Shown here piece by piece: positions 5,403-34,473 of a stretch of 60,810 bases of DNA. The DNA is from Spirochaetales bacterium. Lineage in GTDB: Bacteria; Spirochaetota; Spirochaetia; UBA9216. Both the position numbers and the translations under genes were made by a program. Within the stretch, counting starts at the first letter, position 1; every line of letters begins with the position of its first letter. The DNA lies in the NCBI GenBank assembly GCA_003245835.1, contig QKCC01000016.1:1-60810 (forward strand), given 5' to 3'. The notes under the pieces were generated by a model, which had not been told where the DNA came from, made no database searches, and saw nothing but the letters and a program-made list of their open reading frames with translations.

Positions 5403-5423
5403 AACACAGCACTATTGTAAAGT

Positions 5424-5588
5424 AAGGCGGAGGGCAAATCGGCTATTTCCCCTCCGCCTTCAGAAGTATTTACTAAAGTAAATACTTCATGCTCCAAACC
5501 TGAAGTGTCCGTAAAAGCTGAAGCTTTTACGGTTTCTGTTGGTTGTACAACTTCAGCGGTTAAAAAAGGTGGATTTTTTTAACCGCTG
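5424..5588. repeat. Array of four consecutive perfect inverted repeats between dus and purF
   Basis: Arms 5424-5434/5450-5460, 5463-5473/5478-5488, 5509-5519/5522-5532, 5554-5567/5575-5588 (11, 11, 11 and 14 nt, all exact). Confidence 0.9.
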
Positions 5589-5649
5589 ATCCCGCCCACT
5601 TATGCTTCAGATTTCATATAATTTGACTGCGATTTACGAAGCGGAGGGG

Positions 5650-6669
5650 TTATTCGGCGGTTTCGGTGTTGTGATGCAGCAGGATTTCTCTATATTCCGC
5701 GTGGCTTGACGCATGAACTATCAGGTTCCGAATTGCTGCTGCGCCGGAAGTGCCCTTTGTATAGGAACAGAGGTGCTTTTTCATCTCTTTACAGGCTCTT
5801 GCTTCTCCGTTGAAAAATACCGCCGCATCGAGATGTTTGAGCGCTACCGCTATTTTTTCAAGGTCGGAGGGCTGCTCAATCGGTTTTCCGGTCAGCAGAA
5901 GGTGCTTCGTCTGCTCGAAGATCCACGGGTTGCCGAGTGCTCCTCTTGAAAACATTACCCCGTCGCAGCCGGTTGATTCAAACATTTCGAGCGCAGCCTC
6001 CGGTGAAAACAGATCACCGGATCCGATGACCGGTACGCTTATTGATTCTTTCAATATGCGCAGATGTTCCCATGCGGCCCTGCCTGAATACCCCTGGGCC
6101 CTTGTTCTTGAATGCAGACTGATCATCGATGCCCCGGCATCAACTGCTGTCTGTGCTGTTTCGATATAATTAATACTTGAAGAGTCCCAGCCTGAACGGA
6201 TTTTGACCGAAACCGGGGGTGCTGCAGAGCGTTCCGTCTTTGCGTATTCGGCGGCGCCTTCGGTGAGTGCCGTTACGATATCTTTGAGCCGCGGAAGGTC
6301 GTTCATCAGTGCGGATCCGGCCCCGTTTTTTACGACTTTAGGAACCGGGCAGCCGCAGTTCAGATCGATTACATCCGGCCTGTAGGACATTACTTCAGCA
6401 GCGGCTTTTAGGGCCATTTCAGGGTCGGAGGTGAACAGCTGGACAGCGAAAAAGTCTTCATTGGCTGCGCGTTTGAGCAGCGCTTTTGTTTTTTCACCGT
6501 TTCTGACCAGCCCGTCGCAGGATACCATCTCGGTGAAACCCATCGAGGCGCCCTTTTCAATACAAATGCTTCTGAATGCGGCGTCTGAGAATCCGGCAAT
6601 GGGCGCTAAAAAAAGATTACCCGGGATTTTACACCCGGGCAGTTCGATATCGTGATAAAATTGCGGCAT
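5650..6669 (-). CDS. tRNA-dihydrouridine synthase (Dus family)
   Basis: LAPIAGFSDAAFRSICIEKGA, DLNCGCPVPKVVKNGAGSALM, VKIRSGWD, SLHSRTRAQGYSG. Confidence 0.93.
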   Translation of the reverse strand: MPQFYHDIELPGCKIPGNLFLAPIAGFSDAAFRSICIEKGASMGFTEMVSCDGLVRNGEKTKALLKRAANEDFFAVQLFTSDPEMALKAAAEVMSYRPDVIDLNCGCPVPKVVKNGAGSALMNDLPRLKDIVTALTEGAAEYAKTERSAAPPVSVKIRSGWDSSSINYIETAQTAVDAGASMISLHSRTRAQGYSGRAAWEHLRILKESISVPVIGSGDLFSPEAALEMFESTGCDGVMFSRGALGNPWIFEQTKHLLLTGKPIEQPSDLEKIAVALKHLDAAVFFNGEARACKEMKKHLCSYTKGTSGAAAIRNLIVHASSHAEYREILLHHNTETAE

Positions 6670-6675
6670 TCAGGT

Positions 6676-7449
6676 TCAGTCTTTGATCCCGAAGAACGTC
6701 ATTGAGTTGTTGTAGAGTATTTCGGTCAGTTCTTCGATGTGCATTCCGCGCATGTCCGCAAGGAATTCCGCCGTAGCATGAAGATATGCCGGTTTATTGC
6801 GCTTGCCCCGGTATGCGGAAGGTACCATAAACGGGCTTTCCGATTCTATCAGCATGCGGTCAAGCGGCATGTTTTTGGCTGTCTCATGCAGGTTTCTTGC
6901 ATTTCTGTATGTCACGTTTCCGGCAAATGAGATATAGAGATTAAGTTCGAGCGCCTTCTGCGCGTATGCCCAGTCTTCTGAGTAGCAATGAAGTATTCCG
7001 CCTCTTGGGGGCAGTTTTTCCTGAAGAATGCTCAATACGTCGTCGCCGGCCTCACGGTTGTGAATTATGACCGGCTTGTCTAGTTTATAGGCAAGTTCAA
7101 GCTGTCTGATGAACAGCTCAACCTGTGAGTCCCTGTTGCCGAATTTACGATAATAATCGAGACCGATCTCTCCTACTGCAACAACACGGTCGAAATTTGA
7201 GCCTTCTATAATTTTCATCTCCCAATCTGCACCGGGATTCTGAACTTCTGACGGAGAAACGCCGATACTATGGTATATATGAGATGCTGTTTCGAGATTG
7301 GAGTAGACATAATCAAAATCCGCGAGACTGTTGCAGATGCTGACGATATGCGCAACATCCGCCTGTCTGGCTTCCTGGGTAATTATAAGCTGCTCGATAG
7401 GATCTTCGTGAATAAGCCCTATGTGCGCATGAGTATCAAAAAGTTTCAT
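6676..7449 (-). CDS. TatD-family metal-dependent hydrolase
   Basis: LFDTHAHIGL, VGEIGLDYYRKFGNRDSQVELFIRQLELA, PVIIHNREAGDD, LIESESPFMVP. Confidence 0.92.
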   Translation of the reverse strand: MKLFDTHAHIGLIHEDPIEQLIITQEARQADVAHIVSICNSLADFDYVYSNLETASHIYHSIGVSPSEVQNPGADWEMKIIEGSNFDRVVAVGEIGLDYYRKFGNRDSQVELFIRQLELAYKLDKPVIIHNREAGDDVLSILQEKLPPRGGILHCYSEDWAYAQKALELNLYISFAGNVTYRNARNLHETAKNMPLDRMLIESESPFMVPSAYRGKRNKPAYLHATAEFLADMRGMHIEELTEILYNNSMTFFGIKD

Positions 7450-7636
7450 CTGATTTCCTGCTTTAGTAGTTTAATAAGATACTTGAGAATTATATGTTTA
7501 AAATTAGCACGTTCAATCGACGGCGTCAATATTTATTTGTTAAATGATATATATATAAGGATTACTGCCTATGTTTTTAGGCATATTCTCTTGCTAGTAA
7601 AAGGAATATCCAATATAATATACCAAGGAGCAGGGA

Positions 7637-8650
7637 TTGTCAGCTGAAAGATACAAGAAATTCGAAAACCGGTTGATCGAGGGTGCCGGAAGAATATTTA
7701 AAAGATTTTTCAACGGTATTAATCGCGCGGTAGCCTCTTTTTTTAATACCGGCCGGCAGAAATTTACCATCATGCTTGTTCCTCATTCAGAAAAAAAGGT
7801 CGTCAATTTCAGGATTTCTGTTTTTTCACTTGTTTTTCTGTTTGTAGTCACTGTCGCTGTTCTGGGCACTTTTTTCATATATACGACAAGAATTTCAGGA
7901 GTAACTCAGCAGCTCTCACAGAAATCCTCCGAGCTTGACAAGTCTGAAGAAAATCTCGACCTCCTGCTCGATAAGGTTTCCGAACTGAAGCGCGCTTCGA
8001 GGAATTTTGAGGTTTCGCTGAATAAGGCGATGGAAGCTCTGAATATAAGCAATGACAAGGGGCTGAAGGCAAGCGTGGCAGACGGTGATTTTACGTCGCT
8101 CATATCGGCGAATGAGACCGATGCCGGGGTCATGCGGGAAATCAGTGATCTTGAGAATCTGTCAGCCTACCTTGAAGACTCGGTCGAATCATTCGGCAAG
8201 ATAACCGATTTGATAATATCGCAGGGAGATCTCCTTGTAGAAATGCCTACATTATGGCCGGTTGAGGGCGGTGACGGAAGGATAACGAACTATTTCGGTC
8301 CGGCTGAGCATCCGTTTACTCATCAGTGGTATCTTCATAAGGGACTTGATATCGGCTACGGGTTCGGAAAACCGATTCTGGCCGCGGCAAACGGCAAAGT
8401 CGTAGAGAGGGGATATGAACCTCTCGGTTTCGGTAATTATTTCATCATCAGGCATAATTACGGCTTTCTCACAAAGTATGCTCATTTAAGCGATGTATAT
8501 GTTAACGAGGGTGATGTTGTTACCCAGGGGCAGATCGTCGGAACGATGGGCAGTACCGGACTTTCCACAGGACCGCATCTTCACTTTGAAATCAGGATAG
8601 GTTCACAGGTTGTCGATCCCGAGAAATTCCTGAACGTAAGAAAGCGCTGA
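7637..8650 (+). CDS. M23-family metallopeptidase with N-terminal TM and coiled coil
   Basis: TM segment near N-terminus; HKGLDIGYGFGKPILAAANGKVVERGY and STGLSTGPHLHFEIRIGSQVVDPEKFL (LytM/M23 zinc motifs). TTG start after AGGAG. Confidence 0.92.
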   Translation: MSAERYKKFENRLIEGAGRIFKRFFNGINRAVASFFNTGRQKFTIMLVPHSEKKVVNFRISVFSLVFLFVVTVAVLGTFFIYTTRISGVTQQLSQKSSELDKSEENLDLLLDKVSELKRASRNFEVSLNKAMEALNISNDKGLKASVADGDFTSLISANETDAGVMREISDLENLSAYLEDSVESFGKITDLIISQGDLLVEMPTLWPVEGGDGRITNYFGPAEHPFTHQWYLHKGLDIGYGFGKPILAAANGKVVERGYEPLGFGNYFIIRHNYGFLTKYAHLSDVYVNEGDVVTQGQIVGTMGSTGLSTGPHLHFEIRIGSQVVDPEKFLNVRKR

Positions 8651-8713
8651 TTACGAAAAACCGAAGCCTGAATTTTACTTGCGAAAAATTAATACTGTAA
8701 CAAGGGTTCTTGA

Positions 8714-9160
8714 ATGAGCAATTATCTTTCCGAAGACGGAACATTTATAAATTCTCTTATCGGTGAAGGGACGTTTTTCAAGGGGGATCTGACCCTGAAC
8801 GGACTTCTTAGAATAGACGGTGATTTCAAAGGCACAATTTCAGACGGCGGAAAGGTCCTGATCGGCAAGAGCGGCAGGGCGGAGGCTGCGGTTAAAGCCG
8901 GAACAGTCGTTATCGGCGGGGTTCTGAAGGGCGACATTCAGGCGACCGAGAAGGTTGTAATACTTTCATCCGGGCTTGTTATCGGGAATATAACCGCACC
9001 GAGGCTTCTGATTGAAGACGGTGTAATCCTTAATGGCTACTGCCGCATTGTTGAGTCCGGGGCTGCCGGAAGTACCGGGAGCAGTAAAACGGGCGGGTTG
9101 TTCAGTCTTGGTGCCGGCAGAAGACGGGAGATGGAGACGGCTTCCTCGTGGACAGAATAG
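8714..9160 (+). CDS. Bactofilin family protein (first copy)
   Basis: TFFKGDLTLNGLLRIDGDFKGTI...GKVLIGKSGRAEAAVKAGTVVIGGVLKGDIQATEKVVIL. Confidence 0.92.
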   Translation: MSNYLSEDGTFINSLIGEGTFFKGDLTLNGLLRIDGDFKGTISDGGKVLIGKSGRAEAAVKAGTVVIGGVLKGDIQATEKVVILSSGLVIGNITAPRLLIEDGVILNGYCRIVESGAAGSTGSSKTGGLFSLGAGRRREMETASSWTE

Positions 9161-9648
9161 GATCTCTTGATCCGGGAAATAAATTCAGAAAAACTGAGGG
9201 CGGCAAAAAGGATGTCAAAAAGAATTCGTCCTCTCCATCAGTTTTTGAAAGCCTTGTTGAATCTGAAACCCTGACAGCCAATGCTGTTACCGGAATAGAC
9301 GCCTTCGACGAGGACTCAGATCTTGAAGATCTTCTTGATGATGTACATCAGCAGGGAGACAGGCTGGTTAGAGAATCAAGTCTTGATTCGATAGAAGCCT
9401 ATAAAAAATCCGTTCGTAATTTTATCCATTATATTCTTAAACAGAACGTTACGGTTGAACAGATTGAAGGCGCAAAATTTAACCGGTTTAAACCCTCCAT
9501 CAAGCAAAAAAGGTATACACTTATAAGTATAATTGATGATAAACTCGATAAGCTTGCCGCCGGAATACTGATGAATCAGGGCCGGCAGCTTAATCTGCTT
9601 GCAAAGGTTGAAGAAATAAACGGTCTTCTGGTAGATTTAATAAGCTGA
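9148..9648 (+). CDS. YaaR/DUF327-like protein
   Basis: RLVRESSLDSIEAYKKSVRNFIHYIL...KQKRYTLISIIDDKLDKLAAGIL; adjacent to a PSP1 gene. Overlaps bactofilin 3' end. Confidence 0.75.
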   Translation: MDRIGSLDPGNKFRKTEGGKKDVKKNSSSPSVFESLVESETLTANAVTGIDAFDEDSDLEDLLDDVHQQGDRLVRESSLDSIEAYKKSVRNFIHYILKQNVTVEQIEGAKFNRFKPSIKQKRYTLISIIDDKLDKLAAGILMNQGRQLNLLAKVEEINGLLVDLIS

Positions 9649-9665
9649 TTTTACGGAGCAGATAT

Positions 9666-10526
9666 ATGGAAGATACTGCTGTACAGGATGTGCAGACAAA
9701 TTATAGAGTAAAAATGATTCACTCGAATGAGACTCATGTTGTCGAGATTAAAGACGCTGGTGAAGTCAATTCCAACGATAAGGTGATTGTTACAAGCCGT
9801 TATGGCAAGGATATGGCAACTGTTCTTGGCCGCTGTCATTGCGGTGCAAAACATGAAGGAGAGCTTCAGACCTTCGTCCGGATGGCTACGGAAAAGGATA
9901 TTGAAACCTTCGAAACCAATCTTGAAAAAGAGCGCGAGGCTGTCCGTGTCTGTCGGGAGAAGGTCGCTGAACATAAACTTGACATGAAGCTGGTTTCGGC
10001 TCATTACCTTCCCGACGAATCGAAGATTCTGTTCTTTTTTACTGCCGACGCCCGGGTTGATTTCAGGGGACTGGTAAAGGACCTTGTTGCTGTATTCAAG
10101 ATGAGAATCGAACTCAGGCAGATCGGTGTAAGGGATGAATCAAGGGTTCTCGGCGGAGTAGCGGTCTGCGGCAGGCAGTACTGCTGTCACAATATCACCG
10201 ACAGGCTGCAGTCCGTATCGATTAAAATGGCAAAGGAACAGAACCTTTCACTGAATTCGATGAAGATCTCGGGACCCTGCGGAAGACTGCTCTGCTGTCT
10301 CTCGTATGAATATGATTTTTACCGCGAAGAAAAGAAAAAACTGCCTTCAGTCGGTTCCAGGATTGTAATCGGCAATGTTAACTTCAAGGTTACTGATGTA
10401 AATATTCAGTCCATGAAAATAACCATGTTCGGCGATGACGGACGGAAAGTCGAGGCAGATGCTTCGAGGTTTGTAAAGGAAGGGGATAATTCCCATTGGA
10501 GATTTGACGGTATCCTTGAGGATTAA
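9666..10526 (+). CDS. PSP1-domain (YaaT/RicT-like) protein
   Basis: FTADARVDFRGLVKDLVAVFKMRIELRQIGVRDESRVLGGVAVCGRQYCC...ISGPCGRLLCCLSYE, the Cys-rich PSP1 signature. Confidence 0.92.
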   Translation: MEDTAVQDVQTNYRVKMIHSNETHVVEIKDAGEVNSNDKVIVTSRYGKDMATVLGRCHCGAKHEGELQTFVRMATEKDIETFETNLEKEREAVRVCREKVAEHKLDMKLVSAHYLPDESKILFFFTADARVDFRGLVKDLVAVFKMRIELRQIGVRDESRVLGGVAVCGRQYCCHNITDRLQSVSIKMAKEQNLSLNSMKISGPCGRLLCCLSYEYDFYREEKKKLPSVGSRIVIGNVNFKVTDVNIQSMKITMFGDDGRKVEADASRFVKEGDNSHWRFDGILED

Positions 10527-10601
10527 TCTCTCGATTAACGAGTGAAAGTGGAGTAGTAATACGATACAGCCGCAGCTGGTCAGAGTCAGAGTATTTCTGC
10601 G

Positions 10602-10630
10602 TTGACTTTTCACTGTTTATTTGTTAGATT
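10602..10630 (+). promoter_or_regulatory. Putative sigma70 promoter (TTGACT-N17-TAGATT)
   Basis: -35 10602-10607, -10 10625-10630, upstream of the small zinc-ribbon ORF. Confidence 0.45.
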
Positions 10631-10674
10631 TAGCACCGCGGAAATAATTCTATATTTATATAAAGGAGCTTTTT

Positions 10675-10845
10675 ATGGCACAGGTGAGTAAGAATGCGCG
10701 TACCGGCTCTACTACACACAAACATCTTTGTACTTGCGGCGGCGAGGTCAAGATGAGAGCGTTATTTCAGAACGGTAAACTCAGAAACGTAGCCGTTTGT
10801 GAACAGTGCAATAGAAGAGAAAGAAGACCGAAAGATTTCGATTAA
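10675..10845 (+). CDS. Small (56 aa) zinc-ribbon-like protein
   Basis: ATG after AAGGAG. MAQVSKNARTGSTTHKHLCTCGGEVKMRALFQNGKLRNVAVCEQCNRRERRPKDFD with CxC and CxxC. Absent from the supplied ORF track (below its size cutoff). Confidence 0.75.
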   Translation: MAQVSKNARTGSTTHKHLCTCGGEVKMRALFQNGKLRNVAVCEQCNRRERRPKDFD

Positions 10846-10905
10846 TAGCAGTTCTTCTTTTAGTTGAAAGGTCCGCCGTTTTGGATCCTGCAAACGTTAA
10901 TGCGT

Positions 10906-11697
10906 TTAATAGGGTTTGATATGGCGGCCTTTTTCTATTTTGGGGTTTTCTCTATCTGTTTTTTGCCAGCTGTAAACCTGTTCTTTTATGCTTTCAGCGG
11001 CTTGTTCAACGATTTTCTGGATTTCCTGTTTTGAAGTCGGTGCGTCGAACTTTTCAAGCAGTTTTACATGGTAATTGAAGTCAGACATGTTCCGGACGAG
11101 CCCCTCAATGTTTCCGACCCTCCAGCCTCCTTCAATAGCGGCTGTTACGACCGGCAGCGGATTTACCGAGAGCATCTTTCTTACAGCCCCAAGGTGAAAT
11201 GTTCCTATATGTCCGTCCCTTGAACGCGTCCCTTCCGGGAATACCACCGGACAGTACCCCTGGCCGGCTTTCTGTGCGACCCTTTCAAGCGTCTTCATTG
11301 TTTCAGCGGCGCTTCCTCTACGGTTTATCCTGCCGTGCTGCTGTATTCTGAGCATTATTGATACCATCGGTACCCAGCTGAAAAGGCTGTCTTTTGCGGA
11401 AAATCTCAAATCATGGTCCGGAAAGGACCATATCAGCAGCGGGATGTCCTGTATACTCTGGTGATTGGCTATGAGCATGAATGTTTCGGGGAGTTCAAGT
11501 TCCATTGGACGTTCAAAATGAATATGGACATTCGTATACATCGCTGTAAAGCTGAACAGCAGGTTGCAGATGCGGTGAAACTGCCTGTCTACCCAAGGCT
11601 CAATCGATTTTCTGCTGAATATATATTTAATTCTAATCAATAAATCCCAGTATAAAAATACCGAGAAAGTTAAAAGTGCAAGTACAATCTTCTTCAA
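10906..11697 (-). CDS. 1-acyl-sn-glycerol-3-phosphate acyltransferase (PlsC-like)
   Basis: LIANHQSIQDIPLL (NHxxxxD-type motif), VVFPEGTRSRDG. Confidence 0.9.
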   Translation of the reverse strand: MKKIVLALLTFSVFLYWDLLIRIKYIFSRKSIEPWVDRQFHRICNLLFSFTAMYTNVHIHFERPMELELPETFMLIANHQSIQDIPLLIWSFPDHDLRFSAKDSLFSWVPMVSIMLRIQQHGRINRRGSAAETMKTLERVAQKAGQGYCPVVFPEGTRSRDGHIGTFHLGAVRKMLSVNPLPVVTAAIEGGWRVGNIEGLVRNMSDFNYHVKLLEKFDAPTSKQEIQKIVEQAAESIKEQVYSWQKTDRENPKIEKGRHIKPY

Positions 11698-11868
11698 TTA
11701 TTAAACCTCATTTATAATTTTAACGATTAGTCCAACTGATTGCAAGGAGAAGGCGATATCTATTTGATCTGCCTATATATGCTTGACTATAAAGGATTTA
11801 TCTGTTAATTTATCACACCGTTAAGTAATTTAGGTATATACGTTTCAATAAATATACGGAGGACCGTT

Positions 11869-12138
11869 TTGGGAACCAATAGTTCAGCAGCAAAACGCTA
11901 CAAACAGAGCGAAAAGAGAAGACTTCGAAACAGAGCTGCAAAAAGCAGGGTAAGAACTGTTACTAAAAGCTTTATGACAGCTGTAAAAACCGGCGATAAA
12001 GATGCCGCAGAAGTGAAATTCAAGGAAATGGCCAAGCTTATGGATACAGCAGCCGGTAAGGGTATTTACCATAAAAATACCGTTGCAAGAAAAAAATCCA
12101 GAATGAATAAACTTCTGAATTCGCTTTCAGCAGAATAA
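11869..12138 (+). CDS. rpsT: 30S ribosomal protein S20
   Basis: SSAAKRYKQSEKRRLRNRAAKSRVRT...AAGKGIYHKNTVARKKSRMNKLLN; TTG start. Confidence 0.95.
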   Translation: MGTNSSAAKRYKQSEKRRLRNRAAKSRVRTVTKSFMTAVKTGDKDAAEVKFKEMAKLMDTAAGKGIYHKNTVARKKSRMNKLLNSLSAE

Positions 12139-12167
12139 TACAGAATCTTTTTAATAAAAAAAGGGGT

Positions 12168-12479
12168 ATGCTTGTGAGCCGGGATAAACTCACAAAGGCT
12201 GAGATAATCGAAAATATTCACGAACGTGTGAGTCTCAATCGCAAAGACGTTCATTTGATCATCGATGAGCTGTTCGAAGAACTGAAGGTGGCGCTTGAAG
12301 ACGATAAGGTTGTCGAGCTGCGGGGATTCGGAACCTTTGAAATCCGTACCCGAAAGGGCAGGGAAAAGGCGCGGAATCCAAAAACCGGAGAGATCGTGCC
12401 GGTCAAAGCGCACGGTGTTGCGGTATTCAGACCCGGCAAAGAACTTAAGACACTTGCATGGCCGCTTAGAGATGAGTAG
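12168..12479 (+). CDS. HU/IHF-family DNA-binding protein
   Basis: LTKAEIIENIHERV...VVELRGFGTFEIRTRKGREKARNPKTGEIVPVKAHGVAVFRPGKELK. Confidence 0.95.
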   Translation: MLVSRDKLTKAEIIENIHERVSLNRKDVHLIIDELFEELKVALEDDKVVELRGFGTFEIRTRKGREKARNPKTGEIVPVKAHGVAVFRPGKELKTLAWPLRDE

Positions 12480-14082
12480 TGTCGCAATAAAACCTTCTGC
12501 CAGTGTAAAGCAGGTCTTCATAGAAATAGGCCTGCTTGCGCTTTCTGCCGTCCTTTTTGCACTTTCATATCCGAATGTAATTAATACCTGGGGATTTTTC
12601 CCGCTTGCTTTCATCTGCCTTACTCCTTTATTTATTGTAGTACACCGCTGCGGATGGGGCCGGGTTTTCGTTTACGGAATAACATACGGATATGTCAGCT
12701 ACGCATTGTTTAATTACTGGCTGGGAGCTTTTCATCCCCTTGCAGGCGTTATCGTCTATGTAATATACGCTTCATACTTTCTCGTACTTGTTCCCCTGCT
12801 GAAATTAGCGGACAGATTGTTTCCCCGGTACGGGTATCTGCTTCAGGCCGGTCTATGGGTGGCCTATGAATTTCTTAAGACAAAGGGCTTTCTCGGGTAT
12901 CCCTACGGGAACCTTGGTTATTCACAGTACCTTTTTCTCCCGTTTATTCAGATTTCTTCCGTATTCGGGGTTTGGTTTGTTTCACTGATGGTGGTTTTGC
13001 CGTCTGTATTTATTGGAAATGCCCTTAAAAACGGGGTTTCCGGGTTCAAACCGTTTATAAAGAAGAATAAGCTGTTCATTTACATTTACGCCGCGGTTTT
13101 TATTGCCGTACTGATTTTCGGCTTTGCTTCGCCGTCGGATTTTTCCGATTCGCCGCAGATTAAACTCGGATTTGTTCAGCATAATGCCGACAGCTGGAAG
13201 GGCGGAACAAGACAGTTCGAAAACAACAAAGATAAACTGATAGCCCTCAGTGAAAAGGCGCTTGCTGAAGATCCGGACATACAGATGATGATATGGTCGG
13301 AAACCTGCTTTGTGCCGGGCATTGACTGGCATACCCGCTACCGAACCGATCCGGAGAGGTACAGGCTGGTCAAAGAGCTTAAGGACTTTTTTGCAACCCA
13401 GAAGATTCCCTATGTAATAGGTAATGATGACGGGCAGCTTGAACCTGACAGCAGCGGCGAGCCTGAAAGGGTTGATTACAATGCGGTTCTGCTGTACGAC
13501 GGTGAGCTTAAGCAGACCTACAGGAAGATTCATCTTGTTCCTTTTACGGAGCATTTTCCTTATCAGAAAATAATGCCCAGGTTTTACCAGGCTTTGAAAG
13601 ACAGGGACTACCATTGGTGGAAGCAGGGTACAGAGTATACGGTATTCGATGCTGCAGGCGTCAGGTTCAGTACTCCGATTTGCTTCGAGGATGTTTTCGG
13701 TTATCTTTCAAGGAATTTCGTCAATGCCGGGGCGCAGATCCTGGTGAATATGACAAACGACTCATGGTCCGGGTCGATTCCTTCAGAAATGCAGCATATG
13801 GCCATGGGAGTGTTCCGTGCTGTCGAAAACCGCAGGACTATGGTCCGGGGAACAAATGCGGGCATTACATGCACAATTGAACCGGACGGTAAAATTACAT
13901 CTATGATTGATCCGTTTGAAGAAAACTATATGATAAGTACCGTTCCGATTTATGAGAGTACCGATACACTCTATACAAAATGGGGCGACTGGTTTGCCGT
14001 TACGGTTCTGATTGCGTCGCTTGCTGTCCTGGCTGCAGGTATTGTCTATAAAATCAGCAGACGTGTCAGGTCGGCGACCTAA
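12472..14082 (+). CDS. lnt: Apolipoprotein N-acyltransferase
   Basis: Multiple N-terminal TMs; nitrilase-like domain (MIWSETCF, RKIHLVPFTEHFP, STPICFEDVFGY, NMTNDSWSGSIPSEMQHMAMGVFRAVENRR). Start set at 12472 (MSSVAIKPS), overlapping the HU stop. Confidence 0.93.
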   Translation: MSSVAIKPSASVKQVFIEIGLLALSAVLFALSYPNVINTWGFFPLAFICLTPLFIVVHRCGWGRVFVYGITYGYVSYALFNYWLGAFHPLAGVIVYVIYASYFLVLVPLLKLADRLFPRYGYLLQAGLWVAYEFLKTKGFLGYPYGNLGYSQYLFLPFIQISSVFGVWFVSLMVVLPSVFIGNALKNGVSGFKPFIKKNKLFIYIYAAVFIAVLIFGFASPSDFSDSPQIKLGFVQHNADSWKGGTRQFENNKDKLIALSEKALAEDPDIQMMIWSETCFVPGIDWHTRYRTDPERYRLVKELKDFFATQKIPYVIGNDDGQLEPDSSGEPERVDYNAVLLYDGELKQTYRKIHLVPFTEHFPYQKIMPRFYQALKDRDYHWWKQGTEYTVFDAAGVRFSTPICFEDVFGYLSRNFVNAGAQILVNMTNDSWSGSIPSEMQHMAMGVFRAVENRRTMVRGTNAGITCTIEPDGKITSMIDPFEENYMISTVPIYESTDTLYTKWGDWFAVTVLIASLAVLAAGIVYKISRRVRSAT

Positions 14083-25149: not shown

Positions 25150-27114
25150 ATGTTAGAGCTGATGAAAGGGGTAGACATTCTGGCGGATGTTGGAGGTATT
25201 GCTGATTTAGCTGCCGCCAAAACGCTTTTTGAATCTAAATTAGATGATGCCAACCTTGTAAAAATCAAAACAATTAAAAACGAAGATGCTTTACTGAAGA
25301 TTGCCAACGCAATAGCCATGTGTGATCCGGACAATGTCTTTATCATCACCGAATCAAGAGATGATGCTGCTTATGTAAAAGAACAGAGTCTGAAAACAGG
25401 TGAAGAAAAAAAGCTTGCGATCAAAAACCACACGATCCATTATGATCTTCCGGAAGATCAGGGCAGACTCGTAAAACAGACCTTTTACATTGTGAATGAA
25501 GATGAAGACATCAGTTCGATCGCCAAAAAAGAATCCAGAGCAGATGCACATGCGTATGTAAAGGAAAACATGAAGGGGATTATGAAAGGACTTACGATGT
25601 ATGTCGCCTTTCTAAACCGCGGTCCTATCGGCGCAAAAGCGTCCATTCCCGCACTCATGATCACTTCTTCAACCTATGTTCAGACTTCCGGCGACCTCCT
25701 CTACAGAAATGTTTTTTCTGTTTTTGATGCTGAAGTTGAAAGATGCGGAACATTTTTTACAAATATTCACAGCCAGGGTACCAATAGATCTGAAGATGTG
25801 CCGAAAGCAAAGATCTACATGGATAGAAGCTGGCAGACTTGTTACTCGACATTCTGTACATATGCCGGGAATACCCTGCTTCTGAAAAAGGGTAATCACC
25901 GGTTTGCGGTTGACCGAGCAACATATTTTAAGGTTGAAGAGGAACTGTCGGAGCACATGTTTATAACCGGGATGACCGGTCCCGGAGGTCGTAAGACCTA
26001 TTTTGCCGGTGCTGCGCCATCCGGATGCGGTAAAACGACGACAGCAATGGTAGGAACCGATTTTATAGGTGATGACCTGGCCCAGATTTGGATAGACGAC
26101 GCAACCGGTACTGTTCGCGCTATTAATCCTGAATGCGGAATTTTCGGAATCCTCGAGGATGTAAATGAAGCGGGCGACCCGCACCTTATGGTTAGACTGA
26201 GAAAGGAAGGCACTACAGTCATCTTCTCAAACGTCCTTGTTGATGAAAATAATAAACCGAGATGGGTCGGTGACGGAGAAGAAATACCAGCGAAGGGAAT
26301 CAACTTTCAGGGAGAATGGTCTCCGGGCAGGAAAACTGCGGACGGTAAGAATGTTCCGATGTCGCATCCGAATTCGAGGTGTACCCTGTTATGTGAATCG
26401 ATTGATAATTATAACAAGGAAGCCGCCGAGAGCTCTGACGGTGTTCATATTCAGGTTGTTACTTATTCCGGACGGGATTCCGATACGATGCCGCCGATAT
26501 GGGTCGCAAAATCGATGGATGAAGGAGTAGCAATAGGCGCGTCGATTGTTTCAGCCGCAACTGCTACAGAGGTTGGCGCCGTCGGCGTAAACAGGCAGCC
26601 ATGGGCGAATGCCCCGTTCATTCCGGGTGCGCTCGGTGATTACATGGATGCACAGTTCAGATTTTTCAATTCGGGCAAGATAAAAAATAAACCTATCATG
26701 GCCGGTCTTAATTACTTTCTTACAGAGGGTGCAAGAGGCGGTGAGGGTAAGAAGCTTCTTGGCGAAAAAAAGGATGTAAAGGTCTGGCTCGGATGGCTTG
26801 AACTCAGGGCCAATGGTGATGCAGAAGCCATAGAGACTCCGATTGGGTATATTCCGATGTATGAAGATCTGAAGAAGCTTTTTGACGGAATTAAAAAGGA
26901 ATATCCGAAGTCGCTGTACAGTAAACAATTTTCCTTTTACATCGACAATATTGTTGCCAGGATTGATCTTCAGAATGAGGCGTTCAGAAAGGACGAGAGA
27001 ATTCCTGAAAAGATCTTCGAAATCTACAAGACTCAGAAGGCCGCACTGCTTAAGCTCAAAGAGAAATATGGTCCGGTCGTTAGCGTTGAGCAGCTCGCAG
27101 AAGCAGCAAAATAA
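25150..27114 (+). CDS. pckG: Phosphoenolpyruvate carboxykinase, probably GTP-dependent
   Basis: KTYFAGAAPSGCGKTTTAMVG, ECGIFGILEDVNEAGDP, length and layout consistent with PckG. Confidence 0.9.
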   Translation: MLELMKGVDILADVGGIADLAAAKTLFESKLDDANLVKIKTIKNEDALLKIANAIAMCDPDNVFIITESRDDAAYVKEQSLKTGEEKKLAIKNHTIHYDLPEDQGRLVKQTFYIVNEDEDISSIAKKESRADAHAYVKENMKGIMKGLTMYVAFLNRGPIGAKASIPALMITSSTYVQTSGDLLYRNVFSVFDAEVERCGTFFTNIHSQGTNRSEDVPKAKIYMDRSWQTCYSTFCTYAGNTLLLKKGNHRFAVDRATYFKVEEELSEHMFITGMTGPGGRKTYFAGAAPSGCGKTTTAMVGTDFIGDDLAQIWIDDATGTVRAINPECGIFGILEDVNEAGDPHLMVRLRKEGTTVIFSNVLVDENNKPRWVGDGEEIPAKGINFQGEWSPGRKTADGKNVPMSHPNSRCTLLCESIDNYNKEAAESSDGVHIQVVTYSGRDSDTMPPIWVAKSMDEGVAIGASIVSAATATEVGAVGVNRQPWANAPFIPGALGDYMDAQFRFFNSGKIKNKPIMAGLNYFLTEGARGGEGKKLLGEKKDVKVWLGWLELRANGDAEAIETPIGYIPMYEDLKKLFDGIKKEYPKSLYSKQFSFYIDNIVARIDLQNEAFRKDERIPEKIFEIYKTQKAALLKLKEKYGPVVSVEQLAEAAK

Positions 27115-27312: not shown

Positions 27313-28809
27313 ATGACAAAGAAACTTAGTGAAGTCGTAAATAATTTACGAAGCAATTGTTTAGATTCAAACCAGATTTTTGAGATTATCATGATGTTCC
27401 AGCAGGAATATCTGAAGTCTACAGAGAGTATACAGTCGCTCATCCATACCTCGTATGATGATCTTAAATCCGTAAACGGGAATGCTGAAGAGGTAGCCGA
27501 GCTGGTGAACAGGTCATCGGTGACCATCAAGCATACAATAGATTCATCACGAAAGAATATTGATGCCATGACAGATGCGGCTGATTCCGTGAACAGGCTC
27601 GATGAGGGTTTTTCCGAACTGAAGACAATCTTCGAAGCCCTGAACAAGTCAATTTCTTCAATAGTTGAGCGGATAGATGTTATTGAAGACGTTTCAGAGC
27701 TGACCAACCTGTTGGCGCTGAATGCTGCAATCGAAGCCGCCCGTGCCGGGGAGAAGGGAAGGGGATTTCAGGTTGTTGCCAAAGAAATACGAAAACTCGC
27801 AGACCGCAGCAGAAGCAACACGACTGAAATTACAGCAGTGCTTAAGGAGCTGACTGAGCGGCTAGAAAAGTCAAGGCATATACTGAGCCGTTACGGCAGA
27901 CTTCAGAATGAGGTGTTTGAAAACATCAGTGAAACCAGCCGCAGCCTTACCTCTGCAACAGAGGAACTCGGAGTTATAAATTCAGAGATCGGTTCTATAA
28001 ACACCCTGGTAGAAAAGCAGGCCGGAAATACCGCTTCTCTGCTTGAATCGCTTGATAATGTAAACAGCAACGGGGATTTCACGATAGCCAACGCCCCTTT
28101 TATAAATGAGGCAATAAAGAAATACCAGTTTGCTATGGGTAATACCGATTCTGTATTCAGCGAAATCGGCGGCATGCTGGATGCCGATTCCCGAAATGAC
28201 AGCGGCGATAGCGACAGGATCCTTACTATTGGTCATGATGTGGCGTATCCGCCATGGTGCTTTATTCAGGACGGCTCGTCGGCAGGGGTGAGCATCCTGC
28301 ACTCCAAAACTTACTTCGGCAAAGACGCAGACATCAGCTTTTTAGGCGGGCAATGGTCGGAAGTTTACCCCAAGCTGATTGACGGAAAACTCGATATTAT
28401 TGCCAATGTCGGATGGCCGAATAAATTTTTTGAAAGTGAACCGGTTGTCGCATCCAGGCCGTATGATAGTTTCAATATAAAGGTCTTTTCACGATCGGAT
28501 GAGATCGTGGACGTTTCATACTTCAGGGGTAAAAGAGTGGGGGTTCAGAAGGGCTCTTTCGCGGAAGAGGTTGCCGAAAAATACGGTTTTATTCCGGTAG
28601 TGCTCGATAATGATATTCAGGGTATGGTTCAGCTGCTCTGGAACAATATTGACGGGGTGGCTACGGAGGAACGGGTGGGTAAATATATATCCGATAATCT
28701 TTTTCTTGGTGCAGTTAAACCTGTGACGGAGACCATAGATTCTTTCGACGTTGTTTATCTTATTCACAGGAATTCTGAAATCAGAAAAAAATTCGATATT
28801 TTCCGCTGA
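27313..28809 (+). CDS. Chemoreceptor-like signalling protein: N-terminal MCP signalling domain, C-terminal SBP_bac_3-like domain, no TM segment
   Basis: MCP hairpin [48 protein letters not shown]; from about 28216 [19 protein letters not shown]...[14 protein letters not shown]...[17 protein letters not shown] resembles amino-acid-type periplasmic binding proteins. Confidence 0.88.
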
Positions 28810-28884: not shown

Positions 28885-30564
28885 TCAGGCAATTGAACCG
28901 AGCAGGGTGTGTGCTTCAACTACCGAGCCTGCTGCTACTTCGATACTCTGTATTTTGCCCGAAGCGATTGCCGGGATTTGTATTTCATAATCACCGGTCC
29001 GGTATACCATTACCGGTTCGCCGTAGACTACAGGATCGCCGGCTTTTTTGTATACAGCGGTTATTATTCCCGGAATTTTTGCAACGATGCCGACTCCTCC
29101 TGCCGCTGAAGCTGCAGGTTTCGCAGGTGCTGCAGGAGCTGCCGCGGGAGCCGCCGCAGGCGCTTCATTTTTTCGGACCATTGTTGTTGCCTCACCCTTG
29201 AGGTATGTAATTCCTTTTTCCTTGCAGGTTGCGGCAATGAAGATATTTTCATCGGTGACAGGCAGATCGCTTTCCTTAAGCAGGGCTGTGGCTGCAGCTA
29301 TTCCCTTTGTAGGATCTTCGTCATTGAGATCGACAGCTTTCCTGTCGGTAGGTTCAAGCTTCATCTGTGTTTTACAGAGTTCAATGATTTCCGGAGCCGG
29401 CTGTACAGGAGTTTTTCCGAAATAACCGAGTACCATTTTACCGTAACCGTCGGCTATTCTTTTCCAGGGACCGAAGAATACGTTGTTGAAGGCCTGCTGG
29501 AAGTAGAACTGCGATACCGGTGTAACCGAGGTTCCGAAGCCTCCCTTTTCAACAACCTCACCCATAGCGGCAATAACCTCGGGGAATCTTTCAAGACAGT
29601 TGTTGTCTCTCATCATCTGGGTGTTTGCCGTGAGTGCGCCGCCGGGCATCGGTGAGAAAGGAATCAGGGGTTCTACTTTTTCAGACTCAGGGGGTGTAAA
29701 GTAGTCTTTCATACACTCCTTGAAAACCTCTTCGGCCTTGATGACCTTATTGATATCGATACCAAGGTCAAACTCAGTACCGCGAAGGGCGTGCCACATA
29801 GTCACGACGTCGGGCTGACATGTACCGCCGCTTACGGGGGCAATCGAAAGATCGATCTGATCAGCCCCTGCTTCAAGAGCGGCCTTATAGCCGAGGACGC
29901 TTATTCCCGCTGTTTCGTGGGAATGAAACACAATCTTCATATCTTTACCGAGGACTTGCCTGGCCATTTTGATTGTATCATAAACCTTGCTTGGAACAGC
30001 TGTACCTGATGCATCCTTGAAACATACCGAATCATAAGGAATTCCTGCATCAAGAATACCCTTCAGAACGTCAATATAGAAGTCCGCAGTATGCGCGCCG
30101 GTACATCCCGGGGGCAGTTCCATAAGAGTAACGCAGACTTCATGCTTGAGTCCTGCATCATGAATAGCCTGCCCTGAATCAATCAGGTTATTCACATCGT
30201 TAAGAGCATCGAAATTACGGATAGTTGTAATTCCATGCTTTTTAAACATCTGTGCATGAAGCTTTATAATATCTCTCGGCTGCGAATCCAGTCCTACAAC
30301 ATTTACACCCCTTGCGAGTGTCTGCAGGTTGGCGTCCGGACCGGCAGCCTTTCTGAAAGAATCCATCATATCGAAAGCATTTTCATTGCAGTAAAAGAAA
30401 AGAGACTGGAATCTTGCCCCTCCTCCTGCTTCAAAATGGTTCATTCCTGCATCTACACAGGCCTCGACTGCGGGTAAGAAATCAGGTGTAAAAACCCTTG
30501 CTCCGTAGGCAGACTGAAATCCGTCACGGAATGCGGTTACCATGAATTCTACTCGTTTTTTCAT
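28885..30564 (-). CDS. oadA: OadA / pyruvate carboxylase subunit B-like carboxyltransferase with C-terminal biotinyl-like domain
   Basis: FRDGFQS, TIRNFDALNDVNNL, SVCFKDASGTAVPSK, IVFHSHETAGISVLGYKAALEAGADQIDLS; Ala/Pro linker; biotinyl/lipoyl-like C-terminus. Start placed at 30564 (MKKRVEF) after GGAAGGAA. Confidence 0.85.
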   Translation of the reverse strand: MKKRVEFMVTAFRDGFQSAYGARVFTPDFLPAVEACVDAGMNHFEAGGGARFQSLFFYCNENAFDMMDSFRKAAGPDANLQTLARGVNVVGLDSQPRDIIKLHAQMFKKHGITTIRNFDALNDVNNLIDSGQAIHDAGLKHEVCVTLMELPPGCTGAHTADFYIDVLKGILDAGIPYDSVCFKDASGTAVPSKVYDTIKMARQVLGKDMKIVFHSHETAGISVLGYKAALEAGADQIDLSIAPVSGGTCQPDVVTMWHALRGTEFDLGIDINKVIKAEEVFKECMKDYFTPPESEKVEPLIPFSPMPGGALTANTQMMRDNNCLERFPEVIAAMGEVVEKGGFGTSVTPVSQFYFQQAFNNVFFGPWKRIADGYGKMVLGYFGKTPVQPAPEIIELCKTQMKLEPTDRKAVDLNDEDPTKGIAAATALLKESDLPVTDENIFIAATCKEKGITYLKGEATTMVRKNEAPAAAPAAAPAAPAKPAASAAGGVGIVAKIPGIITAVYKKAGDPVVYGEPVMVYRTGDYEIQIPAIASGKIQSIEVAAGSVVEAHTLLGSIA

Positions 30565-30721
30565 ATTTCCTTCCTTCATAAGTTTAATTCGTTTAAGTTC
30601 AATTGATAGTATTATATGTAGATCCTGCACAGATGTCCATTTTTTTCGGCCCGAATCCGTCAATATTTTTACCTGAAAAAGGTAGTGAAAACACCATATT
30701 TTGCGTTATTATATAGAATAT

Positions 30722-31033
30722 ATGGCAATACATGATAATACAGAAAGCCTTGTTCTAGATAAAGCCGGACTGAAAGTAAAACCGCCGGAGATGTACAATG
30801 TAATCCTGCTGAATGATCACTATACTCCGATGGATTTTGTTGTTGATGTATTGCGCAAGGTATTCCACAAGAACCCTGTAGAAGCGACCAAAATAATGTT
30901 TGAAGTTCATCGCAGGGGCAAAGGCCTGGCCGGCGTCTACATCTATGATATTGCTGCAACCAAAATACAGCAGGTAGACCAGATGGCTAAGTTGGAAGAG
31001 TATCCGCTCAAATGCACGTTGGAGAAAACATAG
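30722..31033 (+). CDS. clpS: ATP-dependent Clp protease adaptor ClpS
   Basis: PPEMYNVILLNDHYTPMDFVVDVLRKVFHKNPVEATKIMFEVHRRGKGLAGVYIYDIA; followed by clpA. Confidence 0.95.
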   Translation: MAIHDNTESLVLDKAGLKVKPPEMYNVILLNDHYTPMDFVVDVLRKVFHKNPVEATKIMFEVHRRGKGLAGVYIYDIAATKIQQVDQMAKLEEYPLKCTLEKT

Positions 31034-33319
31034 ATGGAAATCAGTGAAGATGTACAGGGCATGCTGAATGCAGCTTATCTTGACGCCCGCGAACGGAAGC
31101 ACGAATACATAACACCTGAGCATATGCTTTATGCATCGCTCTATTTCGATCTGCCCCGGCAGATTATTCAGGCCTGCGGTCTTGAACCGGAAGAACTCAG
31201 AATGGAGCTTGAAGAGCATTTGAAACATAATGTTCCGGTGGCGGAAAATTCTGAGCCGATTCAGACAATCGGTTTTCAGGGAGTGATTGAACGGGCAGTA
31301 ATGCATACGGAATCATCATCAAAAAGGATGCTGGATCTGAGTGATATTCTTGTTTCAATCTTTGATGAAGAGAAATCATTCAGCTCGTACTTTTTAAAGA
31401 GGGCCGGATTAAACCGTCTGAACCTGCTAGAAAAAATTTCACATGGGATATATGAAGACGATGAGGACCTGCTTTTTGACACGGAAGAGCTTGAGCCCGG
31501 ACCGCCTGCTTTGTCTTTGGGAAGTTCCCCTCAAAGAGTTTCGGACATGAATCCCGGCGGGGAAGAGCCGAAGAAAGGCAAAAGCTTCCTGCAGGCCTAC
31601 ACAAGGGATCTGACCGAAGAGGCTGCTGAAGGACTTCTTCAGCCTTTTATAGGCCGCGAAGCACTTATAGGGCGAATTTCGGAAGTGCTCTGCCGAAAAC
31701 TCAAGAATAATCCAATTCTGGTAGGGGACCCGGGAACAGGCAAGACTGCACTTGCCGAAGGACTCGCACTAAGGATTGTCTCGGAAGAATGTCCGGCTTT
31801 CCTGGAAGGGTATAAAATCTTCTCACTGGATATGGGAAGTGTTGTAGCCGGAACAAGATTCCGCGGTGATTTTGAAGAGCGTCTGAAAAAGATAATTACC
31901 GAAGTCGAACAGATGAAGAAGGTGATTCTTTTTATTGACGAAATCCATACGATTATCGGTGCAGGTGCCGTTTCCGGCGGTTCGCTTGATGCAGCTAATC
32001 TTCTGAAGCCTGTTCTTGCAAAGGGTCAGGTAAGGTGTATAGGTTCAACTACCCACAATGAGTTCAAGAAAACATTTGAGAATGAACAGGCTCTGCTTCG
32101 CCGGTTTCAGAAGATCGATGTTCCCGAAACCGACAGGGAAGAGACCTTACAGATCCTCTACGGTCTGAAGTCTGATTTTGAAGAACATCATGATGTCGTA
32201 TACAGGGAAGGCACACTCGAAGCAGCTACCGATCTTTCGAAACAGTATATAAACGACAGGTTCCATCCGGATTCCGCTATCGATGTAATTGACGAAGCGG
32301 CTGCCTGGATGCGGGTGCACTCAACCCCTCCTCACGAGATAGGTATTGAAGATATAGAACGAATAGTTTCAAGAATCTCCAATGTTCCCGAGAAATCGGT
32401 AAGCTCTAGTGAAGCCGACAGGCTGCGGGGGTTAGGCGATGAGCTTTCAACCGATATTTTCGGTCAGGAAGAGGCATTGCGGATGATTGTACAAGCCGTC
32501 AGACGCGGCCGGGCTGGATTCAAAAATCCGGATAAACCTGTAGCGTCGTTTCTTTTTGCAGGTCCTACAGGTGTAGGTAAAACCGAGACTGCCAGAAGCC
32601 TTGCGAATGCGCTGTCAATGCCTCTTCACCGTTTTGATATGAGCGAATACCAGGAAAAGCACGCTGTGGCCAGGCTGATCGGTTCGCCTCCGGGTTACGT
32701 AGGTTTCGAAGAGGGCGGTCAGCTTACTGATATTATCAGGCGAACTCCTCATGCCGTACTGCTGCTGGATGAAATAGAAAAGGCCCATCAGGATATTTTC
32801 AATATTCTTCTGCAGATTATGGATTATGCCACTTTAACGGACAATAACGGCAAAAAGGCTGATTTCCGGAACGTTATTCTTATAATGACATCAAATGCCG
32901 GCGCGCGTGATGTAGGAAAGAGCCTGATCGGTTTCGGTGAGAATGAGGTTACCGAAAGTGCTATCAACACCGCTGTTGAAAAGACATTTTCCCCTGAATT
33001 CAGGAACCGTCTTGATTCAATAATAAAATTCAACCGGCTGGGCAAGCAGGTGATCCTGCAGATTGTCGATAAGGAAATCAGTTTTTTTCAGCATCAGCTT
33101 GAAGAGAAGAATGTTACCCTTGAGGTTACGGAACAGTGCCGCAGCTACCTTGCCGATAAAGGATACTCCTATGAATACGGCGCAAGAAATATCTCAAGGC
33201 TTATACAGGATGAAATCAAGTCGTTCTTTGTTGATGAAGTTCTGTTCGGACGTCTGACAGAGGGCGGCAATGCTGTTGCCGATTTCGAAAACGGAGAAGT
33301 CAGGATAAAAGTTTTATGA
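31034..33319 (+). CDS. clpA: ATP-dependent Clp protease ATP-binding subunit ClpA
   Basis: Two AAA+ modules: GDPGTGKTALAEGLA, FIDEIHTIIGAGAVSGGSLDAANLLKP, FAGPTGVGKTETARSLA, LLLDEIEKAHQDIFNILLQIMD; preceded by clpS. Confidence 0.95.
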   Translation: MEISEDVQGMLNAAYLDARERKHEYITPEHMLYASLYFDLPRQIIQACGLEPEELRMELEEHLKHNVPVAENSEPIQTIGFQGVIERAVMHTESSSKRMLDLSDILVSIFDEEKSFSSYFLKRAGLNRLNLLEKISHGIYEDDEDLLFDTEELEPGPPALSLGSSPQRVSDMNPGGEEPKKGKSFLQAYTRDLTEEAAEGLLQPFIGREALIGRISEVLCRKLKNNPILVGDPGTGKTALAEGLALRIVSEECPAFLEGYKIFSLDMGSVVAGTRFRGDFEERLKKIITEVEQMKKVILFIDEIHTIIGAGAVSGGSLDAANLLKPVLAKGQVRCIGSTTHNEFKKTFENEQALLRRFQKIDVPETDREETLQILYGLKSDFEEHHDVVYREGTLEAATDLSKQYINDRFHPDSAIDVIDEAAAWMRVHSTPPHEIGIEDIERIVSRISNVPEKSVSSSEADRLRGLGDELSTDIFGQEEALRMIVQAVRRGRAGFKNPDKPVASFLFAGPTGVGKTETARSLANALSMPLHRFDMSEYQEKHAVARLIGSPPGYVGFEEGGQLTDIIRRTPHAVLLLDEIEKAHQDIFNILLQIMDYATLTDNNGKKADFRNVILIMTSNAGARDVGKSLIGFGENEVTESAINTAVEKTFSPEFRNRLDSIIKFNRLGKQVILQIVDKEISFFQHQLEEKNVTLEVTEQCRSYLADKGYSYEYGARNISRLIQDEIKSFFVDEVLFGRLTEGGNAVADFENGEVRIKVL

Positions 33320-33335
33320 TAATGGATTATCAGGA

Positions 33336-34100
33336 TTGATTGATAAGGATTTTCCTGTACTAGATGAGCACCAGAGACTGGAATTCCCGGCTCCGAACGA
33401 AGCAAACGAAGACGGCATAATCGCCGCCGGGGGCAACCTGTCTCCGGGAATGCTTCTGTCTGCCTACTCACAGGGCGCTTTTCCGTGGTATTCCGGCAAC
33501 GAACCTATTTTATGGTGGAACCCTGACCCCCGCTGCGTACTGTACCCCGAAAAGCTGCACGTCTCGAAAAGAATGAAACGGACTCTTCGCAACGGCTGCT
33601 TCATCTTCCGCAGCGATACGCGCTTTGCCGATGTTATACGGACATGTGCCGGAATCAAACGCAGACATGAAGACGGTACCTGGATTAACCCTGATATAAT
33701 TGCCGGTTACACGGAACTGCATGCACTCGGCTGGGCTCACTCCATCGAAGCCTATATGCCTGCGGAACTCGTACCGGAAGAAGAGCTGCCTGAAGAGAAG
33801 GTTTCCGAGATGATTGACGGGATCGAGTACATACTTGCAGGCGGACTTTACGGTATTTCGCTCGGCCGCTGTTTTTTCGGTGAATCAATGTTTTCGAACG
33901 TGACCGATGCCTCAAAAGCCGCCTTTATTTCAATGGTGGGCGCGCTGTCGGCCCTGGGTATAGAACTCGTCGACTGCCAGATTTTTACCCCCCATCTGGC
34001 CTCGCTTGGGGCTGAAGAAATTTCACGAAAACAGTATATGAGCGAGCTTGACCGGCTGCTGGATTACCCGGATCTGAAGGGCCACTGGAAATTATTCTAA
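33336..34100 (+). CDS. aat: Leucyl/phenylalanyl-tRNA-protein transferase
   Basis: GIIAAGGNLSPGMLLSAYSQGAFPWYSGNEPILWWNPDPRCVL, HSIEAY, LAGGLYGISLGRCFFGESMFS. Confidence 0.95.
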   Translation: MIDKDFPVLDEHQRLEFPAPNEANEDGIIAAGGNLSPGMLLSAYSQGAFPWYSGNEPILWWNPDPRCVLYPEKLHVSKRMKRTLRNGCFIFRSDTRFADVIRTCAGIKRRHEDGTWINPDIIAGYTELHALGWAHSIEAYMPAELVPEEELPEEKVSEMIDGIEYILAGGLYGISLGRCFFGESMFSNVTDASKAAFISMVGALSALGIELVDCQIFTPHLASLGAEEISRKQYMSELDRLLDYPDLKGHWKLF

Positions 34101-34111
34101 CTTCTTTATGC

Positions 34112-34380
34112 CTGAGCGGATGCGTCCAAATGCCATGAACGGCCCTTGCCGCACCCCGCGTCACGGCAAAACCGTCGCGGGCTCCTGAATTTTTGCCGCA
34201 CCGCGGGGCCCCGCAGCGTCGGCATAAATCTGCATCCGCGCAGGCATAACTGCAAACCCGGTTTGTGAAAAGATTCCATAAGGCGGTAATTCTGAGCGGA
34301 TGCGTCCAAATGCCATGAACGGCCCTTGCCGCACCGCGGGGCCCCGCAGCGTTGGCACAAATCTGCATCCGCGCGGGCTC
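34112..34380. repeat. Mosaic intergenic repeat with GC-rich palindromes
   Basis: 44-bp exact repeat 34112-34155 = 34292-34335; second repeat 34193-34243 ~ 34326-34376; palindrome GCGGGGCCCCGC at 34203-34214 and 34336-34347. Confidence 0.9.
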
Positions 34381-34444
34381 CTGAATTATTTTAGTGATTT
34401 CACTACAAAAATCCATTTTTTCACAACATTTCTTCATATTTCTG

Positions 34445-34473
34445 TTGACAGATTCCAAAAGGTGATCTACGAT
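34445..34473 (+). promoter_or_regulatory. sigma70-type promoter (TTGACA-N17-TACGAT) of ABC/GntR operon
   Basis: -35 34445-34450; -10 34468-34473. Confidence 0.55.

Follow-up and report, generated by a model that had tools for sequence, protein, structure and literature searches.

How can a carboxyltransferase (CT) work when the biotinyl domain fused to it has no lysine to carry biotin? A gene on contig QKCC01000016.1 of a marine Spirochaetales bacterium raises this question; it lies in a stretch of 60,810 nucleotides that was analysed as a whole (the window). Our analysis suggests that its product is an oxaloacetate-type CT without biotin of its own, which would use the free carrier MmdC in trans and, together with MmdA, form a split transcarboxylase. 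We give this reading about an even chance.

The gene and its biotinyl domain

The open reading frame, read together with the DNA itself, runs on the minus strand from an ATG at 30564 to a stop at 28885 and encodes 559 aa. The features that matter here are the following.

28885..30564, minus strand: coding sequence of an OadA/transcarboxylase-5S-type CT with a lysine-less biotinyl domain, 559 aa
29695..30558, minus strand: CT TIM-barrel domain, aa 3-290 (alignment of 105 rows; its fold matches transcarboxylase 5S and the OadA CT)
29185..29661, minus strand: PYC_OADA conserved carboxylase domain, aa 302-460 (Pfam PF02436, 98.7 bits)
29095..29166, minus strand: Ala/Pro-rich linker, about aa 467-490, predicted to be disordered (sequence; pLDDT <50 at 471-488)
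28888..29094, minus strand: biotinyl-type C-terminal domain, aa 491-559, predicted to be folded, without the acceptor lysine (PF00364, 26.3 bits; pLDDT about 90; constrained)
28990..28992, minus strand: GAT codon of Asp525, at the biotin-lysine position (DNA; alignment column with 98 K and 7 non-K)
25150..27114, plus strand: GTP-dependent PEP carboxykinase, a possible oxaloacetate source by context only (Pfam PEPCK_GTP and PEPCK_N)

Pfam recognises three parts of the protein, HMGL-like, PYC_OADA and Biotin_lipoyl, the last with 26.3 bits against a cutoff of 22.1. The solved structures nearest in sequence are transcarboxylase 5S (the best PDB match), PycB and the OadA CT, and the top Foldseek matches of the predicted model are two-subunit pyruvate carboxylase and transcarboxylase 5S. 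Against the NCBIfam oadA equivalog TIGR01108, the protein scores 258.4 bits, under the cutoff of 756.5.

The hairpin of the biotinyl domain reads GEPVMVYRTGDYEIQIPA, and the GAT codon of Asp525 (28992-28990) occupies the position of the biotin lysine. In the alignment with relatives, 98 of the 105 rows have Lys in this column and 7 have another residue. In the AlphaFold model (mean pLDDT 88), the C-terminal domain is folded, and beta strands at 517-523 and 526-531 place Asp525 in the turn of a beta-hairpin. The earlier note had put an Asp at the Lys position, and the DNA, the alignment column and the modelled hairpin all agree with it. Its description of the surroundings is also confirmed: FKDASG and the HSH-type residues are present in the CT (the latter as HSHETAG), the chemoreceptor-like gene and pckG that it saw nearby are an MCP-type gene (27313-28809) and the PEPCK-GTP gene (25150-27114), and no oadB or oadG was found adjoining the CT gene in the window.

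The MCP-type gene encodes an MCP signalling domain followed by a solute-binding-protein-like C-terminal region, an unusual order, and Pfam names only MCPsignal. Elsewhere in the window, clpS, clpA-like and aat-like (leucyl/phenylalanyl-tRNA-protein transferase) genes lie in a row at 30701-34100 as an N-degron pathway cluster (the Pfam check covers clpS only). At about 33985-34460, a motif like GPRGAARAVHGIWTHPL recurs in overlapping ORFs, suggesting short intergenic DNA repeats.

A free biotin carrier and a possible role in malonyl-CoA supply

Across the class, oadB lies within 4 kb of the CT gene in 56 of 71 loci, and the 15 loci where it does not include all members of the window's family. 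The lysine was read only in fetched loci; among these, every locus with oadB adjoining oadA keeps it where the domain is readable (L031 is frameshifted), and the lysine has been lost only in CT genes without an adjacent oadB. No oadB was seen near L069, L277, L278 or L279. In four genomes of the window's genus (G001-G004), the sole OadB sits in a separate operon, mmdA-mmdD-mmdC-mmdB (the G001 contig includes only the end of mmdA), in which mmdC encodes a stand-alone carrier of about 151-161 aa bearing an EAMKMD biotin motif. G233, a lysine-less member of a second spirochaete family (f37), likewise has an mmd-type operon with a free EAMKMD carrier.

In the window's own genome (G000), contig C252 holds mmdA, mmdD and the first ~50 codons of mmdC and then ends, so that the carrier's Lys site would lie beyond this point; PF03977 (OadB) has no match in this assembly. 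The carrier and OadB are missed in G000 because C252 stops inside mmdC, and true loss of the two genes is rejected on account of this break. G000 also encodes a BirA-type ligase, above the curated cutoff. Thus two of the partners that the earlier note had considered, a separate carrier and birA, are found, the carrier as the start of MmdC in G000 and complete in G001-G004, while a third, the biotin carboxylase accC, is not found in G000.

Use of a carrier in trans by the CT would thus seem well supported, and the carrier is most likely MmdC from the distant mmd-type operon. The CT gene is unlinked to that operon, so that the CT-MmdC pairing is inferred; likewise putative are acetyl-CoA as the substrate, the direction in which carboxyl groups move and what the lysine-less domain does. 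A free carrier does not force loss of the lysine, as G003 has the mmd operon with its carrier yet retains Lys.

In the model that we propose, the CT would move the carboxyl group of oxaloacetate onto the biotin of MmdC, yielding pyruvate and MmdC-carboxybiotin. MmdA would then pass it on from MmdC-carboxybiotin to an acyl-CoA, giving malonyl-CoA without ATP. The acyl-CoA is most likely acetyl-CoA, because the seven genomes of the family gave no match to methylmalonyl-CoA mutase. The net reaction would convert oxaloacetate and acetyl-CoA to pyruvate and malonyl-CoA in a cell without acetyl-CoA carboxylase (ACC). The neighbouring GTP-PEPCK could supply the oxaloacetate, as suggested by gene position only. 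As an alternative fate, the MmdB sodium pump could decarboxylate the carboxybiotin, releasing CO2 and moving Na+.

Lombard and Moreira (2011, PMC3199775) describe Spirochaetes and Thermotogales as lacking the standard ACC genes, and their passages on this point name no replacement. This absence raises the question of the source of malonyl-CoA in those members that still make fatty acids. Our genome-wide absences rest on profile searches. The biotin carboxylase C-domain (PF02785) was not found by profile search in G000 and G002-G006, six of the seven family genomes, with a positive result in 13 of 14 control genomes; a two-subunit pyruvate carboxylase with a PycA partner is rejected on this ground, and the classical propionate pathway is rejected in the genus by the missing mutase. 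In the same six genomes, PF01039 is matched by no protein other than MmdA (in G006 just a contig-end fragment). G002 (which shares its contig with L037, Candidatus Thalassospirochaeta sargassi) has the FAS-II cluster fabD-fabG-fabF-fabZ-fabV, plus fabH, and therefore needs malonyl-CoA. Alone in the family, G001 (81% complete) gives biotin-carboxylase profile matches; the biotin-carboxylase and pyruvate-carboxylase-like frames at L207 and L208 (G001:C400, C143), seen only in this genome of the genus, may represent contamination or a real gain.

Gene neighbourhoods elsewhere in the class connect CTs of the MmdA type with acetyl-CoA and fatty acids. At L326 (G068:C1:714000-727000), positions 4388-12999, an OadA-type CT with EAMKMM and mmdA are directly divergent from fabH-fabD-fabG-fabF-fabV, which we take as a strong contextual link between putative oxaloacetate transcarboxylation and fatty acid synthesis; G068 also encodes a large fused ACC-like protein. 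mmdA lies head-to-head with fabD in G045, beside the pyruvate dehydrogenase gene aceE in family f18, and alongside a gene of the aldehyde dehydrogenase family in G041, G051 and G059 (Pfam checked for G041). The MmdA of the window's family falls outside the clade of PDH-linked or OadA-linked MmdAs in a tree built without the G045 and G068 sequences. The mmdA of family f23 has neither a carrier nor a pump gene beside it, and the oadA of that family encodes two biotinyl domains that keep the lysine, a pattern reciprocal to that of the window's genus that would fit two CTs sharing one carrier.

A protein of roughly 1850 aa with a carboxyl transferase domain occurs at L196, L197 and L198 (G055, G036, G011). 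For the G055 protein, Pfam adds ACC_central, a domain of the eukaryote-type fused acetyl-CoA carboxylase.

From these neighbourhoods and gene contents we infer a role of the window CT in malonyl-CoA supply. More tentatively, and at somewhat less than an even chance, ACC-less spirochaetes in general would make malonyl-CoA from oxaloacetate without ATP, through OadA-type and MmdA-type CTs that share one carrier; where MmdC serves both, the fused domain would have lost its lysine and persist as a structural docking element. Among the open-access papers searched, which exclude most subscription journals, we found none that proposes this ATP-free route from oxaloacetate to malonyl-CoA.

With mmdB and mmdD among its genes, the mmd operon may encode a complete decarboxylase pump that works without the CT. 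On an unlikely but still serious alternative, the CT would load the oxaloacetate carboxyl on MmdC and MmdB would decarboxylate it, so that an oxaloacetate decarboxylase would rely on the carrier and pump of the mmd operon; synthesis of malonyl-CoA would then be incidental, or would proceed via reversed MmdB with MmdA. The presence of mmdB and an OadG-like mmdD in the operon agrees with such a shared sodium pump, as does the fact that homologous CTs adjoin oadB in most of the class, and the pump family is known to be reversible. However, the supply of malonyl-CoA would depend on a pump running uphill in reverse, and the f23 mmdA, which has neither pump nor carrier alongside, suggests that CTs can share a carrier independently of a pump.

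Active-site conservation and repeated loss of the lysine

The residues D14, Q17, E45, R85, K183 (of FKDASG), D184, H214, H216 and T248 show no variation in any row of the 105-row alignment that covers them, including the lysine-less proteins, which indicates that the CT enzyme is not decaying. The Thr that corresponds to T248 in pyruvate carboxylase acts as a proton shuttle to biotin, and its retention in lysine-less CTs favours continued biotin chemistry. This bears on a further alternative, which we consider quite unlikely, that the barrel alone acts as a biotin-independent oxaloacetate decarboxylase or another metal-dependent lyase, leaving the biotinyl domain as a relic. The CT protein indeed has no biotin site (Asp525), and CT domains of pyruvate carboxylase have a weak oxaloacetate decarboxylation activity that is independent of biotin. 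Against it stand the invariance of this Thr, the conservation of lysine-less CTs to the same degree as their biotinylated relatives, and the free carriers and BirA encoded in these genomes. Thus, among the three readings left by the earlier note, a carrier in trans is favoured by the MmdC operon, BirA and the intact CT site, structural repurposing may hold as well since the domain is retained, and biotin independence is disfavoured.

The window protein is one of several that lack the lysine. In the Ca. Thalassospirochaeta group, to which the window's genome belongs, G001, G002 and G004 read QTGN, QTGE and QTGD, and the fifth genome of the genus, G003, keeps the lysine (ESMKME). Four genomes of family f37 are also lysine-less: CP070696.1 (G233) and G197 read EFMMME, and G167 and G161 read ELMNTE/ELMNME at the biotin-Lys hairpin. 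In another member of f37, G106, ESMKME is kept, yet the CT reading frame is broken; at L234/L252 (G106:C143) the window-type oadA is interrupted by a frame change and a stop, and a second mmdA-oadA pair lies elsewhere (L328).

A single clade for the seven aligned lysine-less proteins is rejected (p-AU 1.6e-5). One ancestral loss for all of them is therefore discarded, and the lysine was lost at least twice independently. The f37 losses may be one event or two (p-AU 0.074). The four lysine-less members of the genus do not form a resolved clade in the CT tree, but a constraint that joins them is not rejected (p-AU 0.463); in the MmdA tree, the Lys-bearing G003 falls outside G000, G002 and G004 (G001 is absent from this tree). 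That the lysine was lost repeatedly while the CT site stayed intact suggests that an oxaloacetate CT and an acyl-CoA CT share a carrier, as a small three-protein system.

Synonymous differences within the genus have nearly saturated. Between lysine-less species, the non-synonymous distances of the biotinyl domain are about 0.15-0.36, and its identity is 0.49-0.76. Lys-bearing pairs at similar CT divergence have a mean biotinyl identity of 0.665 (quartiles 0.60-0.73), and the lysine-less pairs lie within their range. With dN well below dS and identity in the Lys-bearing range, the domain is still constrained: it is under purifying selection. It is also predicted to fold, and has probably been retained, in folded form, for docking or assembly.

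A distinctly improbable alternative is that selection on the domain has been relaxed and that it is decaying after another carrier took over, with no present role; such decay would be compatible with the explanation that we prefer for the CT itself. The lysine has been lost more than once, to D, E, N and M, and the biotinyl domain diverges faster than the CT domain, as decay would have it. The frame is nevertheless intact in all lysine-less proteins, dN is far under the near-saturated dS, the domain has diverged no more quickly than Lys-bearing domains when CT divergence is matched, and the predicted fold is confident. Finally, the chance that Asp525 is an assembly or sequencing artefact is negligible, because the lysine is also lost in three other same-genus genomes, to different residues and in otherwise clean reading frames, which rules out sequencing error despite a fragmented window assembly (318 contigs, 7.08% contamination).

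Relation to known systems

The proposed split transcarboxylase resembles the 5S/1.3S/12S transcarboxylase of Propionibacterium, which has a separate oxaloacetate/pyruvate CT (5S), a carrier and an acyl-CoA CT, and no biotin carboxylase. The counterparts of the latter two, a 12S-type acyl-CoA CT and a free carrier, are encoded as MmdA in G000 and as MmdC at its start in G000 and in full in G001-G004. However, 5S has no biotinyl domain, whereas a lysine-less one is fused to the window CT, and the putative partners of the window CT belong to an mmd operon with a sodium-pump subunit, with acetyl-CoA as the likely acyl-CoA.

The window CT shares its architecture of HMGL-like CT, PYC_OADA, linker and biotinyl domain with OadA, the alpha subunit of the Na+-pumping oxaloacetate decarboxylase, but lacks two of the features that define it, the biotin lysine and adjacent oadB/oadG, and also falls below the TIGR01108 cutoff. 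Methylmalonyl-CoA decarboxylase (MmdA-MmdD-MmdC-MmdB) matches the gene order in the sister genomes and would supply the probable carrier and acyl-CoA CT; unlike the proposed system, it has no oxaloacetate CT, and the genus lacks methylmalonyl-CoA mutase by profile search.

Plant BADC proteins are non-biotinylated BCCP homologues of heteromeric ACCase that serve assembly or regulation (PMC11926652). Both they and the window protein retain a biotinyl-type fold without the acceptor Lys or motif. BADC proteins are separate subunits of an ATP-dependent ACCase, whereas the bacterial domain forms one chain with an oxaloacetate-type CT, in genomes where no ACC was found. The window protein thus offers a bacterial, fused instance of what plant BADC proteins otherwise exemplify, a biotinyl domain that is not biotinylated.
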